From: Marinobacterium sp.
Lineage (GTDB): Bacteria > Pseudomonadota > Gammaproteobacteria > Pseudomonadales > Balneatricaceae
Assembly (NCBI GenBank): GCA_030602245.1
Contig: JAUWAC010000013.1
Span: 1-64,000, forward strand
Direction: 5' to 3'
DNA length: 64,000 nucleotides
Shown: positions 16,784-28,070 of the stretch, piece by piece
Layout: every line of letters begins with the position of its first letter
Numbering within the stretch: position 1 is the first letter of the stretch
Program-made: the position numbers and the translations under genes
The notes under the pieces: generated by a model
The model's database searches: none
What the model saw: the letters and a program-made list of their open reading frames with translations, nothing else
What the model was told of the DNA's origin: nothing

Positions 16784-19126
16784 TTATGCTTGTTCAGACC
16801 GCTGTTTCAGCATCACCGCCCACGCCTGCCCGAGGCTGATGGCAGCATCATTGCACGGCACACGTCGCGGCAGCAGCACCTCCAGCCCCGCCGCTTCAAT
16901 CTGCCCGACCATACGCTGACGCAGCTGCCGGTTCAGCAGACAGCCACCGCCGATCGCCACCGTCTCCAGCCTGTCCTGTTCCGCCAGGGCGATGGCCCAC
17001 GCGGCCAGCGTATCGGCAAGGCGGGCATGAAAGCGCGCCGCGCCGCGCGCGGTGTCGGTTTCGCCGACCAGCTCGGCAAGCAACGGCAGCAGATCCAGCC
17101 GGGCAACAGGGGGCAGAGGGGAAAAAGGGGCTCTGCCCCCTGTTTCTTTCTCCCTGACACACGCCTCCAGCAGCATCGGCGCCTGCGCTTCGTACTGTTG
17201 ATGCTCGCACAGGCCAAGCAGCGCCGCGGCGGCATCGAACACGCGACCGAGACTTGAGGTGGGCGGGCAGTTAATCCCCCGCTCGAGCATTTTCAGCAAC
17301 GCGGCGGTCGCCGGCCGTTCAGCGAAGCGCTGCTCGATCAGATCTGTTCTGCCAAGCTGATGCAGTACCGCCAGCGCCATCCGCCAGGGCTCTCGGGCCG
17401 CGGCATCCCCGCCCGGCAGCGGCAGTGGCGCCAGCTCCCCCAGCGGTCGGTACCCGCTGCCGTCGACCCGCAGCAACTCGCCGCCTCTGAGCTGCCCGTC
17501 CCAGCCCAGACCGACCCCATCCAGCGCAAGCCCCAGCACCGGACCACCCCGGCCATGTTCAGCCATGACGGCGGCAATATGGGCGTGATGGTGCTGGATC
17601 GGCTGCAGCGGCGCGTCCAGACGCTCGCTCAACGTGCGAGCCAGTCGACTGGCGTGGAAGTCCGGGTGCAGATCGCAGGCGATCTGCTGGGGCCGGATCT
17701 CGAGCAGCTGGCACAGCGCATCGACACTGCGCTCCAGCGTACGGCAGTTGTCGGCATTATCCAGATCGCCGATGTGCGGTGACAGAAACGCGTGCCCGCC
17801 CCGTGTCAGGCAGATCGTGTTTTTCAGATAACTGCCCAGCGCCAGCACACTGGCTGGCACAAACGTCTCTTTTTTGCCGATCCATGGCGCCCCGGCCGCC
17901 GCTTGCGTATCCAGTGCCAGCGGCGCCAATCCGCGCCCGAGGCGGATCGGCATGACAGGCTCGACGCTGGCGTCAATCAGTGAGTCGTCACAGCGATGTT
18001 CGATCTCGCGATCGTGCAGCAGCAACAGATCAGCGATTCCGGCCAGTTTGTCGCGCGCCTCGCCATTGTCCGTTATCAGCGGTTCACCGCTGCGATTGGC
18101 GCTGGTCATCACCAGCAGCAGCGCGTCGGGCTGCTCGGTCCACGCGTGACCGACCGGACGCCCCCGCGCTTCATGGAACAGCAGCCAGTGCAGCGGGCTG
18201 TGCGGCAGCATGACGCCGAGGCGATCCAGCCCCGGCGCCAGCGCGTCCGTTAATCCGGCTCCGGTGCGGCGCGCTTGCAGCACGATCGGAGCGGCCGGAT
18301 GCCTGAGCCACTGCTGGCCGCTGTCGGTCAGCTCGACCACGGCGGCCAGCGAGGCCGTGTTCAGCGCCATCAGCGCAAACGGCTTGGCCGGCCGGCGTTT
18401 GCGTTGGCGTAACCGCAACACGGCCGCTTCGTTGCGCGCATCGCAGGCCAGATGAAAACCGCCGATGCCGCGCAACGCGACGATCTCACCGCGCCGGATC
18501 GCCGCCACGGCATGGGTCAGCGCGTCGCCGTGCAAGGTCTCGCCCGCGGCCGTTTCGGCCCAGAGCGCAGGCCCACAGGCCGGGCAGGCATTGGGCTGGG
18601 CGTGAAAGCGCCGGTGGCCGGGATCATCGTATTCGCGCTGACAGTCGGCGCACTGGCGGAAGCGGGCCATGCTGGTGTTGGCGCGGTCGTAGGGCAGCGC
18701 GCGGATCAGCGAGTAGCGCGGGCCGCACTGGGTGCAGTTGATGAACGGGTAGCAGTAGCGGCGATCCGCCGGATCGAACAGTTCGGCAAGACAGTGCGGA
18801 CAGACAGCGGCATCAGGCGTCACCGGCAATGCCAGCGTGCGCGCGCCCTGCTCACTGGCGACGATCCGAAACCCCGCATATGACGCCGGCGCAGGCAGTG
18901 TCTCGACCGCAAGCGAGTCGATCCGCGCCAGCGGCGGCAGCTCGGTGCGCAGGCGATGCTGAAACCGCGCCAGTTGCGCCGCCGCGCCGCTGAGCTCGAT
19001 CTGCACCCCCTGACGGCTGTTACAGACCTGACCGGCCAGTGCAAGCTCAGTGGCCAGGCGATGCACGAACGGACGAAACCCCACGCCCTGTACCTGCCCG
19101 GCGACGGTCAAACGCAGCGCCGGCAT
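16784..19126 (-). CDS. hypF: Carbamoyltransferase HypF
   Basis: A 780-residue enzyme that uses carbamoyl phosphate and ATP to make the carbamoyl group passed to HypE. Domains in order: acylphosphatase-like (1-90, [16 protein letters not shown]), two zinc-finger repeats with CPHC, CTQC, CADC and CPAC pairs (about 107-183), a YrdC-like adenylate-forming domain (about 200-385), and a Kae1-like transferase with [14 protein letters not shown]. Length and motifs are normal. The start overlaps the stop of hoxA by one base (TGATG). Confidence 0.97.
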
Positions 19127-20577
19127 CAGCCGTTCTCCAGCTCGTAGCGCTCGATTTTGGCGCGCAGCCCGACCCGGGACAGCCCCAGCTCGCGGGCGGC
19201 ACGGCTCTTGTTCCAGCGATGGCGGATCAGGGTTTCCCGCAGTATCTGTTTCTCGAGCTGCTCGACACGTTCCTTCAGCGTCCCGCTGAGATCCGCCACC
19301 TGCGCCAGCAGCGGCGCCGGTTCGCCATCGACACTGCTGCGCAACACGCGCGGGTTCAGCAGATCCGCCCCCAGCACCGGCTCCTGTGCCAGCACCAGCA
19401 TGCGCCGGATTTCATTCTGCAGCTCACGCACGTTGCCGGGCCAGCCGTAAGCCCGCAGACATTCGATCGCCTCGTCGGTAAAGCCTGCCACCGGCTTGTC
19501 GAACGCTTCCACCGCGCGGTCGAGAAAGGCGCGGGCCAGCAGCGGAATATCCCCGTCACGCTGCGCCAGCGGCGGCAGTTCCAGTGTCACTTCGGCCAGC
19601 CGGTAGTACAGATCCTCACGGAAGCGGCCGGCACGCACCTCCTCCTCGAGGCTGCGGTTGGTCGATGCGATGACACGGACATTGACCGGACGCCGCTGGC
19701 TGTCACCGACCCGGCGCACTTCGCGCTCCTGCAACACCCGCAGCAGCTTGACCTGAAACGCCGGTGAAATCTCCCCGATCTCGTCGAGGAAGATGGTACC
19801 GCCATCCGCCTGTTCGAACAGCCCGACATGGTCGTTGATGGCGCCGGTGAAGGCTCCTTTGCGATGTCCGAACAGCTCGGAGGCCAGCAGCTCGTCCGGC
19901 ATCGCCCCGCAGTTCTCCACCACGAACGGCTTGTCGGCCCGCAGGCTGTTGTAGTGCAGCGCGCGTGCGAACAGCTCTTTGCCGCTGCCGGAGGGCCCCG
20001 TGACCAGCACGGAAATGTCGAACGGCGCCACCTGTGCGACCTGCTCACAGAGGGCGTTGAGCGGACTGTCAGGCGCGCGCAGAATTTCGCTGAAATCGAA
20101 GCGTTGCCGCAGCCGCGCCTTCTTGGCCTGAACCTGCGCCTCCACCTGCGGCGTGGTCAGGCGCATCTCGGTGGCCAGCAGCGCATTTTCCTGCTCCAGC
20201 TTCACCAGCTGGCAGGCATTTTTCAACGTCAGGATCAGATGATCCGGGTGCCAGGGTTTGGTCAGATACTGGAAGATACCGGCCTCGTTGAGACCGCGAA
20301 TGATGTCCTCCGAATCGGTGTAGCCCGACAGGATCAGGCGCGCCGTCTGCGGAAAGCGCTCGCGCACCTGGATCAGGAATTCGACGCCGGTCTGTCCCGG
20401 CATCCGCTGATCGCACAGCACGGCGTGCACGCGGTGATACTCGAGCAGCTCCAACGCCTGTTCGGGGCTGGCCGCGGTCAGCACATCGAACGCCTCGTCC
20501 AGCGTACGCTCCAGCGTTTCGAGCGAGCGTACTTCGTCATCGACACAGAGCACCGTGGGGCGCGAACTGTACTGCAT
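19126..20577 (-). CDS. hoxA: NtrC-family hydrogenase transcriptional activator HoxA/HupR
   Basis: A 483-residue sigma-54 activator. The receiver (1-120) has Asp56 in LCDQRMPG. The AAA+ domain has a Walker A GPSGSGKE, the sigma-54-contacting GAFTGA loop and FLDEIGEI. A Fis-type helix-turn-helix ends the protein ([20 protein letters not shown]). HoxA of Ralstonia and HupR of Rhodobacter activate hydrogenase promoters and work in the non-phosphorylated form. The ATG at 20577 ([15 protein letters not shown]) is chosen; the longer frame would run back into hypB. Its place between hypB and hypF is the usual one. Probable target: the promoter upstream of hupS at 62.8 kb. Confidence 0.95.
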
Positions 20578-20590
20578 CTGCCGGCCCCCG

Positions 20591-21493
20591 TCAGAGCAAC
20601 ATTTCCAGCGCCTGAGCCTGCTGTCGCAGCTGCTCGATGCGCTGGCGGATCCGCGCCGTGCGGCGTCTTTCGATCCATTCAAGCCACCGCTCCATCCCCT
20701 CTCCGGAGCGGGCCGACACCTGCAGTACGTCGATCTCGGGATTGACGCGGCGGGCGTAGTCGATGCACGCGTCGACATCGAAGTCGAGATGCGGCAGCAG
20801 ATCGGTCTTGTTCAGCAGCATCAGGTCAGCGGCGTGAAACATGTCCGGGTATTTCAGCGGCTTGTCTTCCCCTTCGGTCACGGACAGGATCGCCACCTTG
20901 TGCGCCTCACCCAGATCGAACGCCGCCGGGCACACCAGATTGCCGACGTTTTCGATAAACAGAACACCGCCGTCAAGGCCGTCGAGGCGCTCCATGGCAT
21001 GACCGACCATATGCGCATCCAGATGGCACCCCTTGCCGGTATTGATCTGGACCGCACGGGCACCGGTGGCGCGGATACGCTCGGCATCGTGTGCGGTCTG
21101 CTGGTCGCCCTCGATGACGGCCAGTGGCACCCTCGTCCCCAGCCGCTCGATGGTGTGGGTCAGCAGCGTGGTTTTGCCTGAGCCCGGGCTTGACACCAGG
21201 TTCAGTGCAAACAGCGACAGCGCCTCGAAGCGGGCGCGGTTCTGCGCGGCATAGCGGTCGTTCTTGCCGAGAATATCCTGCTCGATCTGCACCATACGGC
21301 TCTGGCTCAGACCGGGCGCATGGGCACGGGCCGCCCCCTGTCCGTAATCCAGCTGATCGCCGCTGGCCACCAGCGGCGATGCATCATGGTCATGGCCGTG
21401 CACATGAGCCGGTGCAGGGGGATGCCCGTGATGATGGTGATGATGCCCTTCGATCCGGGTTTCGCCTTCGCCGCAGCCACAGACGGTACACAT
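20591..21493 (-). CDS. hypB: Hydrogenase nickel-incorporation GTPase HypB
   Basis: A 300-residue GTPase delivering nickel to the hydrogenase large subunit with HypA. The N-terminus has the high-affinity metal motif CTVCGC (Cys2, Cys5, Cys7), followed by a histidine-rich tract (about residues 17-36, including six consecutive histidines) that can store nickel. The G domain starts with P-loop PGSGKTT (103-109), and further G-domain motifs follow. It is one base downstream of hypA and 13 bases before hoxA. Confidence 0.97.
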
Positions 21494-25211: not shown

Positions 25212-25841
25212 TCAGGCCTCCCGCTCGGCGTCGCTGGCCGGCTGCAGGAAACGGATATCGCCGTGACGAAACGCCTCCTCGGCACCGGGGCGGCCGGCTT
25301 CGTAGCGGGTCAGTTCCAGCTGCTCCGGCGACAGTGCCTGCGGGGCTTGCGACCGCGGCTGCGGCTCGATACCGCGCACAGCCAGGTACTCGAGCGCCAC
25401 GGTCAGTGCCGGCTCAAGCTGTTCACGCACCGGCGCCGTGAGGCTGCCGCCAAAATCCTCGAGATGCTTGGGCTGGACGCCGATCAGCAGCAGCTCACGC
25501 GGATAGGCGCCGGTGAATTCGGCCAGCGCCAGCACCTCCTGAAAGCCGGTCTGGTGCAGACTCATCCGCTTGGCGCCCATGAATTTGGGCACCTCGTCAC
25601 CCTCGACGATTTTCATCGTGCCCGGCGCCAGGCCGTAGTCGATCGCATCGAATACGATCAGGATCCGGGCCTGCTGGACATGCTGCACCAGATAGATCCC
25701 CTGGGTGCCGCCATCGAGCAGCTGCACCCGCTCGGGAAACCGGTAGCGCTGGTTGAGCTGCTCAACACAGCGCACGCCAAAGCCCTCATCGGCCCATAAC
25801 AGATTGCCGATTCCGAGGATCAGCACCTTGTCGTTGTTCAT
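25212..25841 (-). CDS. hupD: Hydrogenase maturation endopeptidase HupD/HoxM
   Basis: A 209-residue nickel-dependent protease that cuts the large-subunit C-terminal tail after His of DPCxxCxxH, allowing assembly. Metal-binding and recognition motifs are visible: GIGNLLWADEGFGV (Glu17-like ligand), FDAIDYG and LHQTGFQEVL. The C-terminal 40 residues extend beyond HybD-like proteases. It is the first gene of the maturation block; its natural partner hupC is 33 kb away. Confidence 0.95.
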   Translation of the reverse strand: MNNDKVLILGIGNLLWADEGFGVRCVEQLNQRYRFPERVQLLDGGTQGIYLVQHVQQARILIVFDAIDYGLAPGTMKIVEGDEVPKFMGAKRMSLHQTGFQEVLALAEFTGAYPRELLLIGVQPKHLEDFGGSLTAPVREQLEPALTVALEYLAVRGIEPQPRSQAPQALSPEQLELTRYEAGRPGAEEAFRHGDIRFLQPASDAEREA

Positions 25842-26218
25842 CGCTTCACCACTGTCGCCTGTATGCATCCGCTTGACACCGGGCCTCGCCTGGCCTGGCC
25901 GGGCCGGGCCGGGAACATTTGGACCATCGTTACAAGCTCCATGCCAGCCAGCGAAACAACGGGCAGACAGGCGCCACGGCCGCTGTTACGGCAGGGGTTA
26001 CAGGACAGCGCGACAATGCAGATCGGAAAGTTTGTTTACAGGTGAGCGTAATAGCGGCAACTGTTTTTGCATCCGCCTATCGGGGCGTTTGTATTATTCA
26101 ATACAACAAGCGGTCCCGGCACCGGCACGGATCCGCTATAATCAGCAGAATTTCATCCGGATACGGCCTCGTTATCTTTTTGTTTTCCCTGCCAATAGCC
26201 TTTACCGATACGCCGAAT
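25842..26218. other. Divergent intergenic region between hupD and the pseudokinase gene
   Basis: 377 bases that must hold the promoters of both transcripts. It contains a GC-rich run of CCTGG/CCGGG units at 25883-25917, a perfect inverted repeat at 26089-26106 and a TATAAT at 26137-26142 facing the pseudokinase gene. No acceptable sigma-54 -24/-12 pair facing hupD was found. Confidence 0.5.
26089..26106. promoter_or_regulatory. Candidate operator upstream of the pseudokinase gene
   Basis: TTGTATTATTCAATACAA is a perfect 7-base inverted repeat around a four-base ATTC spacer, about 30 bases before the TATAAT at 26137. The base composition stands out from its GC-rich surroundings. The binding protein is unknown. 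Confidence 0.45.
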
Positions 26219-27637
26219 ATGACACGACTTTTCTTGTACGCGCTGTTCATGCTCGCCAGCCCGCTGGCGCAGGCCGACCTGTTTGCTCCCTTCCGCGAAG
26301 CGGACGGCAGCACCAACTGGCAGTATGTTGCCAACTTCTCCAGCGGCGTTCTGATCATTCTGCTGACGATCGTCGTCCTCGTGCTCTTCGTGACCTGGCG
26401 CCGTGCCCGCCGCTACAACCTGGCGCTTGAAGAGATCCGCGGCCACCTTGAGGAGCGCGTGCGCGAGCGCACCGCCAAGCTCGAACAGGAAGTCTCGGAG
26501 CACGTCATTACAACCCGCCTGCTGAAGGCCTCCGAGTCCTACATTCAGAATATTCTGCGCTCGATGCCTCTGGTGCTGGTGGGCCTCAACCGACAGGGTG
26601 TCATCACGCAGTGGAACCGTCGCGCCGAGCAGATCTCCGGCATCAGCGCGGAGGATGCGATCGGCAAGAACCTGTGGTCGATCTACTCGGACATTACGGT
26701 GGCGCCGCGCCATATCGAGCAGGCACTGGAGAAGGGCGAGGCGATTACGCTGCGCCACAGTCAGCCGGGCAGCTACCACTTCGATATCACGGTCTACCCG
26801 CTGGAGAACTACAGCGAGCCCGGCGTCGTCATTCTGGTCGATGACGTCACCAAGCGCGTGATCGCCGAAAACATGCTGATCCATCACGACAAGCTGTCGT
26901 CGATGGGCGAACTGGCCACGGCGATGGCCAACGATATCAATACTCCGCTGCAGGCGATCCTGTTCGACCTGCGCAGCTTCCAGGGCATTCTGGAATCGGG
27001 CCGCCTGCTGCCCAGCGGCAGCGATAACGAAGCCGCCACCGAGAAACTGCAGACACTGCTGCAGAACGCGTCGGACAACGGTCGACAGGTGGAATCGATC
27101 ATTCGCAACCTGCTGCAGTTCGCCCGCGGTCGCAGCGACAAGCCACAGCCGGCCAACGTCATCGACATTATCGAACACTCGCTGGAACAGGCACGGGAGG
27201 TGCTGTCGCTGCCGGATACATTCCCGTTCAGCGACATCCGGATCGAGCGCCACTTCGAACCCGAACTGCCGCTGCTGCCCTGCTACGTCACCGAGCTGCA
27301 GCAGGTATTCCTGAGCCTGTTCCGCCACGCTTATCAGGCACTGGCGGAAAAACAGGAAGAAGGGTTCACGCCGACGATCAAACTCTACGCCGGCGAAAGC
27401 TACGATGCGCTGTCAATCAAGGTGCAGCACAACGGTGTCGGGCTCTCCAGTGACGAGCAGATGCACCTGTTCGAGCCCTACCTGCACGATGCCAACATCG
27501 AACAGGCCGCGGCCGGCGCCGGCAAGCGTCTTTCCTTCGCGCATTTCGTCATCACCGAACAGCATCAGGGCCACATGGCCGTGACCTCGGACCCGGCGGT
27601 CGGCACCACCTTCCACATCCAGCTGGAGCACCACTGA
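26219..27637 (+). CDS. Membrane PAS histidine-kinase-like protein with degenerate catalytic sites (probable pseudokinase)
   Basis: A 472-residue protein: signal peptide (1-19, cut after AQA), short periplasmic segment, membrane helix about 40-60, coiled coil about 65-95, PAS domain about 98-210, then regions aligning with HisKA and HATPase. The H-box reads AMANDINTPL where kinases have VAHEINNPL, so the acceptor histidine is Asn238. The N-box has RHAYQA with His370 for the metal-binding Asn, and the G1 box has HNGVG with His404 for Asp. The glycine lid is GAGKRLSFA. Kinase activity is therefore unlikely; a signal-binding or partner-sequestering role is inferred. It is divergent from hupD, where a HoxJ-like kinase might be expected. 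The ATG at 26219 precedes the signal peptide. Confidence 0.85.
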   Translation: MTRLFLYALFMLASPLAQADLFAPFREADGSTNWQYVANFSSGVLIILLTIVVLVLFVTWRRARRYNLALEEIRGHLEERVRERTAKLEQEVSEHVITTRLLKASESYIQNILRSMPLVLVGLNRQGVITQWNRRAEQISGISAEDAIGKNLWSIYSDITVAPRHIEQALEKGEAITLRHSQPGSYHFDITVYPLENYSEPGVVILVDDVTKRVIAENMLIHHDKLSSMGELATAMANDINTPLQAILFDLRSFQGILESGRLLPSGSDNEAATEKLQTLLQNASDNGRQVESIIRNLLQFARGRSDKPQPANVIDIIEHSLEQAREVLSLPDTFPFSDIRIERHFEPELPLLPCYVTELQQVFLSLFRHAYQALAEKQEEGFTPTIKLYAGESYDALSIKVQHNGVGLSSDEQMHLFEPYLHDANIEQAAAGAGKRLSFAHFVITEQHQGHMAVTSDPAVGTTFHIQLEHH

Positions 27638-27638
27638 G

Positions 27639-28070
27639 TCAGCGCGACGCCTGCGACGACTGACGGCTGATGAAATCGGCCGTCACCGTATCCATGGTCG
27701 CGATGTGATTGAGCAGCCAGTGCGGCAGCAGCGTCACATATTCGCGCAGATGCCCCACATCACCGGCCGCGTGCCAGTGCCGGTGTACCTGCTCCATCTG
27801 CCCCAGCACCCGCTCATGCTCGCCGGCATGGCAACTGAGCGCCGGGAAACCGGTGCGCTGCATCTCCCGCTCTTCGTGCGCGAAGTGTGCCCGGGTGTGT
27901 TCAACCAGCGCCTGCAACGCCTGGGCGATCGCGGACCGGTCATAGCTGTCGGCCTGCTGCACCCCGGTCAGCGCCTCGAGCCGCGCGATCAGCCGGGCGG
28001 CCTCGGCGTGGTCGCTGTTCATGAAATCAAGGGCGACCTGCGGCAGGTTTTCGCGCTCGGAAAATGACAT
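27639..28070 (-). CDS. Bacteriohemerythrin
   Basis: A 143-residue four-helix protein with the di-iron ligands of the hemerythrin family: His in MNSDHAEA, HTRAHFAHEEREM, HAGEH and the C-terminal WLLNHIATMD. It binds O2 reversibly and may store or deliver oxygen. It converges on the pseudokinase gene with one base between them. Confidence 0.93.
   Translation of the reverse strand: MSFSERENLPQVALDFMNSDHAEAARLIARLEALTGVQQADSYDRSAIAQALQALVEHTRAHFAHEEREMQRTGFPALSCHAGEHERVLGQMEQVHRHWHAAGDVGHLREYVTLLPHWLLNHIATMDTVTADFISRQSSQASR

Follow-up and report, generated by a model that had tools for sequence, protein, structure and literature searches.

Three described regulators come closest to the protein considered here. 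DivL, from the alphaproteobacterium Caulobacter, combines PAS, DHp and CA domains and has Tyr in place of the phospho-acceptor His, with its N, G1, F and G2 boxes kept; RetS, from Pseudomonas, is a membrane protein of the kinase family with a 7TM/DISMED sensor and receiver domains; and NifL, from Azotobacter, is a soluble PAS plus GHKL protein encoded with nifA. DivL is reported to retain the kinase fold and to have a conserved, non-catalytic role (PMC4211667). RetS, described as a hybrid kinase, acts on another kinase, GacS, by blocking its autophosphorylation (PMC4866733), and NifL, which is reported to sense the redox state of FAD and ADP, traps a sigma-54 activator by contact (PMC12540587). 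Pseudo-histidine kinases are uncommon: the acceptor His is missing in 0.9% (722 of 76,471) of the HisKA domains sampled in one survey (PMC12632262). The family described below is a variant of this known kind.

The gene analysed here lies in a 64-kb stretch of DNA (hereafter the window) from a 76.6-kb contig, in a 2.39 Mb genome that is 91% complete and whose closest named relatives are Marinobacterium species. A reading made from the letters of the window (the sequence-only reading) had described its product as a kinase-like protein that lost its catalytic residues in an intact frame. Alignment with intact kinases agrees at every position it named: Asn238 replaces the acceptor His, His370 the N-box Asn and His404 the G1 Asp, and the glycine-rich G2 box has become GAGKRLSFA. 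Beyond that list, two more losses are seen: Ser366 replaces the first N-box Asn, a site at which Asn is found in 5 of 105 family rows, and the residue at H+4 (position 242) is not conserved. The frame is indeed open over its 472 codons, and the coordinates confirm that the gene is divergent from hupD (Table 1). A longer reading from a TTG at 25919 (572 aa) was discarded because relatives align from, or near, the ATG at 26219. Compared with a catalytic HisKA kinase, the protein has the DHp plus CA fold, found both by Pfam and in model matches, and lacks the acceptor His of the H-box as well as the ATP motifs (N-box Asn, G1 Asp and Gly-rich G2). These residues suggest that ATP binding and kinase activity have been lost, although they do not settle ATP binding, because DivL, whose boxes are intact, reportedly binds TNP-ATP only weakly (PMC4211667).

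Table 1. Features of the pseudokinase gene and its neighbours, in window coordinates
Feature	Position	Strand	Remarks
Pseudokinase gene	26219..27637	+	472 aa plus stop, frame open
Periplasmic family signature, residues 20-42, ahead of the transmembrane helix	26276..26344	+	consensus FKDEDGxTNWQYVANFSSG
Single transmembrane helix, residues 43-60	26345..26398	+	sequence reading; within model helix 34-114
PAS domain, residues about 104-215	26528..26863	+	Pfam, model
DHp (HisKA) region, residues about 216-330	26864..27208	+	Pfam, model
Codon 238, Asn replacing phospho-acceptor His	26930..26932	+	alignment
CA (HATPase_c) domain, residues about 331-472	27209..27634	+	Pfam; fold retained in model
Codon 370, His replacing N-box Asn	27326..27328	+	alignment
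Codon 404, His replacing G1 Asp	27428..27430	+	alignment
Degraded G2 box GAGKRLSFA, residues 433-441	27515..27541	+	alignment with intact kinases
hupD, divergent neighbour, first gene of hyp/hup accessory cluster	25212..25868	-	
HoxA-like sigma-54 response regulator	19126..20778	-	name HoxA from the sequence-only reading, by position
Bacteriohemerythrin-like gene, convergent neighbour of pseudokinase	27639..28070	-	

From the N-terminus, the protein is made up of a signal peptide (by sequence reading), a short periplasmic segment, one transmembrane helix, a coiled linker, and PAS, DHp and CA domains; the Pfam scan returned PAS, HisKA (27.0 bits, just over its cut-off of 26.9) and HATPase_c. 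The periplasmic signature has a mean column entropy of 1.36, compared with 1.40 for the PAS domain and 2.41 for the signal peptide. An AlphaFold2 monomer model built from 46 sequences (mean pLDDT 77.1, pTM 0.47) contains an N-terminal helix, a long helix spanning residues 34-114, the PAS domain, two DHp helices and a complete CA domain, in which lid residues 423-432 fall under pLDDT 50. Foldseek and VIA-align matched this model to histidine kinases and related GHKL kinases, ATP- and ADP-bound ones among them, with closely tied scores; the absence of a family from these listings was not taken as exclusion. DivL (4q20; Z 17.6, 141 residues, 2.7 Å) and RetS (6dk7; Z 17.6, 203 residues, 4.8 Å) were both matched, and the NifL-NifA complex (9qq6) is among the Foldseek matches. 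DivL 4q20 is absent from the 21 sequence matches at E 1e-3 and present in the fold searches. As modelled, then, the histidine kinase fold appears to be retained and the pocket residues lost.

We collected relatives from several sources. A search of 57 related genomes gave a match in 32, some being distant intact kinases; a scan of named genomes, with two peptide patterns that avoid the catalytic residues, found 147 relatives, of which 80 were retained; and order-level sequences were added as 20 stretches and then six more. Thirty-one of the 48 order-level matches were fetched and 17 left; one of the 31 (L151) had no usable protein and, with a fragment (L153), is excluded from the counts and the tree. 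Family counts refer to the 104 distinct members among 105 rows, and those for Ser366 and for deviations to all 105 rows. The relatives come from Marinobacterium, Nitrincola, Amphritea, Neptunomonas, Pontibacterium, Motiliproteus, Porticoccaceae, SAR92 and Teredinibacter. The sequence-only reading had proposed aligning homologues, and the substitutions prove to be conserved across genera: the G1 residue is His in 102 of the 104 members, Phe in 2 and Asp in none, which excludes chance or sequencing error. At the N-box Asn site, His (90) is joined by Tyr (6; L042 and a Porticoccaceae/HTCC2207 group), Ser (6; L022, L145 and L147-L150) and Asn (2; L135 and L146). The acceptor site is His in 69 members, Asn in 11, Tyr in 8, Gln in 8, Ser in 3, Arg in 3, and Leu and Phe in one each, and the Asp that follows it (H+1) is invariant (104/104). 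Rather than a lone decaying copy, the window's protein represents a pseudokinase family that is conserved among marine Gammaproteobacteria. No prior description of this family was recognised in the literature covered, which lies largely outside subscription journals. Two relatives that combine Phe404 at G1 with an Arg acceptor (L143 and L144) are among the most degraded members found.

The intact sister kinases, L025 and L133 (family f4, genus g19), share the domain order and the TNWQYxAN N-terminal motif, the core of the periplasmic signature, with the pseudokinase at 46-47% identity, but their H, N, G1 and G2 boxes are all intact. In a tree of 114 rows, this pair is sister to the 105-row clade (SH-aLRT 100), and the window's Asn238 sits in a 14-row clade (SH-aLRT 100) that has only Asn or Ser at this site. 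The minimum number of changes was one for the G1 Asp, three for the N-box and 12 for presence or absence of the acceptor, on what is a quick tree with SH-aLRT support only, trait columns included and a long-branch warning. A single G1 change, set against at least 12 acceptor changes, indicates that ATP handling was lost before the phospho-acceptor, which became dispensable later, on this quick tree that includes the trait columns. With an intact sister, one G1 loss and many independent His losses, the family shows directly which parts of a kinase go first and which later while its sensing and contact roles persist. The acceptor His alone is a poor marker of activity: a screen for His only would pass 69 of the 104 members as active kinases, because the His is kept in these while the G1 Asp is kept in none.

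We think it probable that the pseudokinase works without catalysis, as an allosteric partner to a second kinase or a regulator, in the manner of RetS, DivL and NifL. An ancestral intact kinase would have retained its periplasmic signature, transmembrane helix and PAS domain together with the dimerisation and catalytic folds, while ATP handling was lost, the G1 Asp going once with N-box and G2 changes alongside; the acceptor His, no longer essential, would then have been lost repeatedly. The sensor half may still shift the conformation of DHp and CA, whose surface would bind and adjust another protein, most likely another histidine kinase in a RetS-like mixed dimer, or a response regulator or activator as with DivL and NifL. 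Across the family the periplasmic signature, transmembrane helix, linker, PAS domain and much of DHp persist and the acceptor, H+4 and lid vary, which fits conformational transmission to a partner kinase or regulator. Signalling would run through shape and contact in place of phosphorylation, and non-catalytic signalling has reported precedents in DivL (PMC4211667) and in an evolved ChrS variant (PMC9491836).

The likeness to each precedent is partial. In DivL the N, G1, F and G2 boxes remain and Tyr stands for the His, whereas this family lost the boxes first and the His later, to Asn, Ser, Gln, Tyr and others; the pseudokinase therefore falls outside the DivL family, defined by a Tyr or Ala acceptor with N, G1 and G2 kept. 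It also differs from RetS in having one transmembrane helix, one PAS domain and no receiver, none being found in the Pfam scan, so that it is not a RetS-type hybrid. Unlike NifL, it is anchored in the membrane; its pocket residues speak against ADP, and across the loci compared no activator gene stays next to it. Several points count against the allosteric reading. The 69 members that keep the His may be phosphorylated in trans or from a response regulator, which does not apply to the window's protein, and no partner gene is conserved beside the pseudokinase in the loci examined. The residue-based case for lost ATP binding, the N-terminal dN/dS of 0.41 and 0.35 in two pairs and the monomeric state of the model (pTM 0.47) weigh on the same side.

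We consider it unlikely that the protein is instead a phosphatase-only or phospho-accepting variant, which would make no phosphate but remove it from, or relay it to, a response regulator. The invariant Asp at H+1 and the acceptor His of 69 members would suit such a role; however, H+4 (position 242), presumably the HisKA phosphatase position, is not conserved among the 104 members (I 32, T 20, A 15, L 12 and others), the nine intact relatives having N (7) or S (2). Also in its favour, the His is reported not to be essential for HisKA phosphatase activity (PMC12632262), but no response regulator is conserved beside the gene. Among intact kinases, none was recognised by eye in the flanks inspected at the sister locus L111, and the distant relatives L114 and L115 have a receiver-like gene nearby (by eye).

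The N-box Asn contacts Mg and the G1 Asp contacts adenine. A repurposed pocket, with His370 and His404 holding a metal or other small ligand whose binding would work the switch, is quite unlikely, and we would say the same of its family-wide form, in which the ATP pocket would have turned into a largely fixed, His-lined site for a non-ATP ligand or metal, serving as the switch of the PAS sensor, while the acceptor was repeatedly discarded. The two residues are widely kept (His404 in 102 and His370 in 90 of 104 members), with one and three changes at these catalytic positions compared with 12 at the acceptor, but several lineages lack one His (Tyr, Ser or Asn at 370; Phe404 in L143 and L144).

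The sequence-only reading had tied the protein to HoxA and the hydrogenase by position. Past hupD, the window carries hypC, hyaE-like, hupH-like, hybE, hupK-like (a name that we presume), hypB, hoxA-like, hypF, hypD and hypE genes, and the receiver domain of the HoxA-like regulator retains its Asp (LCDQRMPG, by eye). We find it very unlikely that the protein is a dedicated partner which, much as NifL with NifA, would bind unphosphorylated HoxA and bring hydrogenase expression under the control of a gas or redox signal. Several observations speak for such a partner. In all eight genomes of the window's genus, a distance of 5-11 kb on one contig separates the gene from hypE, and in seven of them a HoxA-like activator shares the contig at no more than about 10 kb; three g3 genomes have the gene 11-13 kb away from the hypE of another kind of hydrogenase, resembling a sulfhydrogenase, and in a fourth it is near hypB. 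The NifL-NifA complex in the Foldseek listing would also fit, and HoxA is indeed reported to act unphosphorylated in Cupriavidus (PMC10073562), in line with the sequence-only reading.

Among 116 genomes of the taxonomic family, the pseudokinase gene was found in 71, hypE in 54 and HoxA in 33 (cut-offs E <= 1e-60 for the gene and E <= 1e-100 for HoxA, incomplete genomes counting as absences). The gene and HoxA were not associated (present together in 21 genomes, the gene without HoxA in 50, HoxA without the gene in 12 and neither in 33; p = 0.83 by Fisher's test): 50 of 71 carriers lack a HoxA match, including G005 from the window's own genus (a draft, 87% complete), and in 12 of 33 HoxA genomes the gene has no match. 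With hypE there is a mild association of carriage, both in the family (together in 40 genomes, the gene without hypE in 31, hypE without the gene in 14 and neither in 31; p = 0.013, kinship ignored) and in 390 genomes of the order (12 both, 36 gene only, 40 hypE only, 302 neither; p = 0.02, kinship ignored), where the 48 matches are the gene or the intact sister and 2 of the 12 hypE co-carriers have the sister instead. This mildly favours some hydrogenase link, but hypE lies within 20 kb in 11 of the 40 genomes with both, draft contigs possibly hiding some. Genus g6 has a HoxA match in 0 of 8 genomes and the gene within 20 kb of hypE in 0 of 8 (on different contigs in 6), and the two g6 copies read, L008 and L009, are also without the acceptor His. 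A simple home-made scan, with a strict threshold and no positive control, gave no sigma-54 site in the hupD intergenic region, which also counts against HoxA.

The genome also has an intact candidate for the role. On another contig (C18), a PAS kinase with intact H, N, G1 and G2 boxes (P0002, soluble-looking) is encoded directly upstream of the genes for the small and then the large subunit of a [NiFe]-hydrogenase (L164:5229-9002). From their position we take these genes to be hoxJ, hoxB and hoxC, names that do not appear among the NCBIfam matches shown, and the set is apparently a regulatory hydrogenase on a contig other than that of hoxA. P0002 and the pseudokinase are both PAS histidine kinases by family; P0002 is separate, intact and apparently soluble, and fits a HoxJ/HupT-type active kinase encoded with regulatory hydrogenase genes, which the pseudokinase does not. 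In Cupriavidus, HoxJ is reported to inactivate HoxA through phosphorylation (PMC10073562). HoxA here thus has a plausible ordinary controller, and the HoxJ-like kinase is plausibly a better candidate than the pseudokinase. A third hydrogenase is also encoded on C18 (L165:8864-11180), its large subunit matching the sulfhydrogenase models ShyA/HydA below their cut-offs.

To compare neighbourhoods in relatives, the ORFs flanking 81 loci were clustered, contig ends truncating many of these loci, and for 36 of the 81 the neighbours were read by eye from ORF starts, so that names such as cydAB are recognised rather than computed. Clustering found no operon partner conserved across genera; its largest clusters consisted of the hup genes in Marinobacterium and, among Porticoccaceae/SAR92 relatives, of a set comprising an ABC ATPase, a permease and an esterase. 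The genes from hupD to hypB, plus hoxA, are common to five named Marinobacterium loci (L031-L034 and L036), and L043 has hypB only. Against a HoxA partner, the His-less L035, L037 and L041 adjoin cydAB-like genes (by eye), and L039 and L042 adjoin others. The g3 locus adjoins a sulfhydrogenase-like cluster, and three different redox enzyme clusters beside the pseudokinase in Marinobacterium and g3 may be more than chance. Elsewhere, galE and rpoA-like genes adjoin it in L066 and L079, and ABC genes in SAR92 relatives (by eye). The pseudokinase gene is an orphan, and its siting beside hydrogenase genes is peculiar to a few Marinobacterium. With no HoxA co-occurrence (p = 0.83), no conserved neighbours and an intact HoxJ-like kinase present, the tie to HoxA and the hydrogenase was not supported, and as a general role it was rejected on the co-occurrence and neighbourhood tests; a later, genus-level recruitment to HoxA may have taken place. 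A HoxA-related sigma-54 activator (37-41% identity) is encoded upstream of the pseudokinase in L035, L037, L038 and L041. A queD-like gene adjoins three intact relatives from different families (L111, L113 and L120); as a positional link to the pseudokinase it was set aside, being absent from all other loci searched (L031-L132).

The sequence-only reading had supposed that the gene is selected for another role and had proposed a comparison of synonymous and non-synonymous rates. Pairwise NG86 estimates for 19 chosen pairs (L044 occurring in two) gave a whole-gene dN/dS of 0.05-0.14 where the His is lost (8 pairs) and 0.03-0.15 where it is kept (11 pairs), and a CA-domain dN/dS of 0.04-0.14 and 0.01-0.12, respectively. 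The highest regional values were 0.41 and 0.35, for the N-terminal 66 residues in two pairs, and dN/dS was well under 1 for all domains and pairs tested; the absolute values are rough because dS exceeds 1 in several pairs. Derived consensus changes number 13 in the window's lineage and 10 in its sister group. These ratios, 0.03-0.15 over the 19 pairs, indicate purifying selection, and with the conserved substitutions they bear out selection for a role that is non-catalytic. The protein is thus a pseudo-histidine kinase, its key residues lost within a kinase fold that selection has kept. The outcome that the sequence-only reading had named against itself was seen in part: intact homologues do exist, in the sister lineage L025/L133, but relaxed selection on the window's lineage was not seen in the 19-pair dN/dS or the derived-change counts. 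That this is a decaying kinase on its way to loss, as the acceptor His lost in 35 of 104 members and the 45 of 116 family genomes without a match at 1e-60 might suggest, is hardly credible and was rejected, given that low dN/dS contradicts it, the substitutions are conserved, and none of the 71 matches listed for the taxonomic family is broken by an internal stop (G099 being partial near a contig end).

Two further features of the locus are recorded here. The stop of the bacteriohemerythrin-like gene falls 1 base past that of the pseudokinase, on the opposite strand, and a monomeric isocitrate dehydrogenase gene comes after it; among the loci searched, bacteriohemerythrin relatives lie next to the pseudokinase gene in L031 and L034 only. 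Upstream of the pseudokinase gene, at 26135-26143, a sequence resembling a -10 box (GCTATAATC) occurs once in the window, against 0.11 expected, and is kept in six aligned Marinobacterium sequences.
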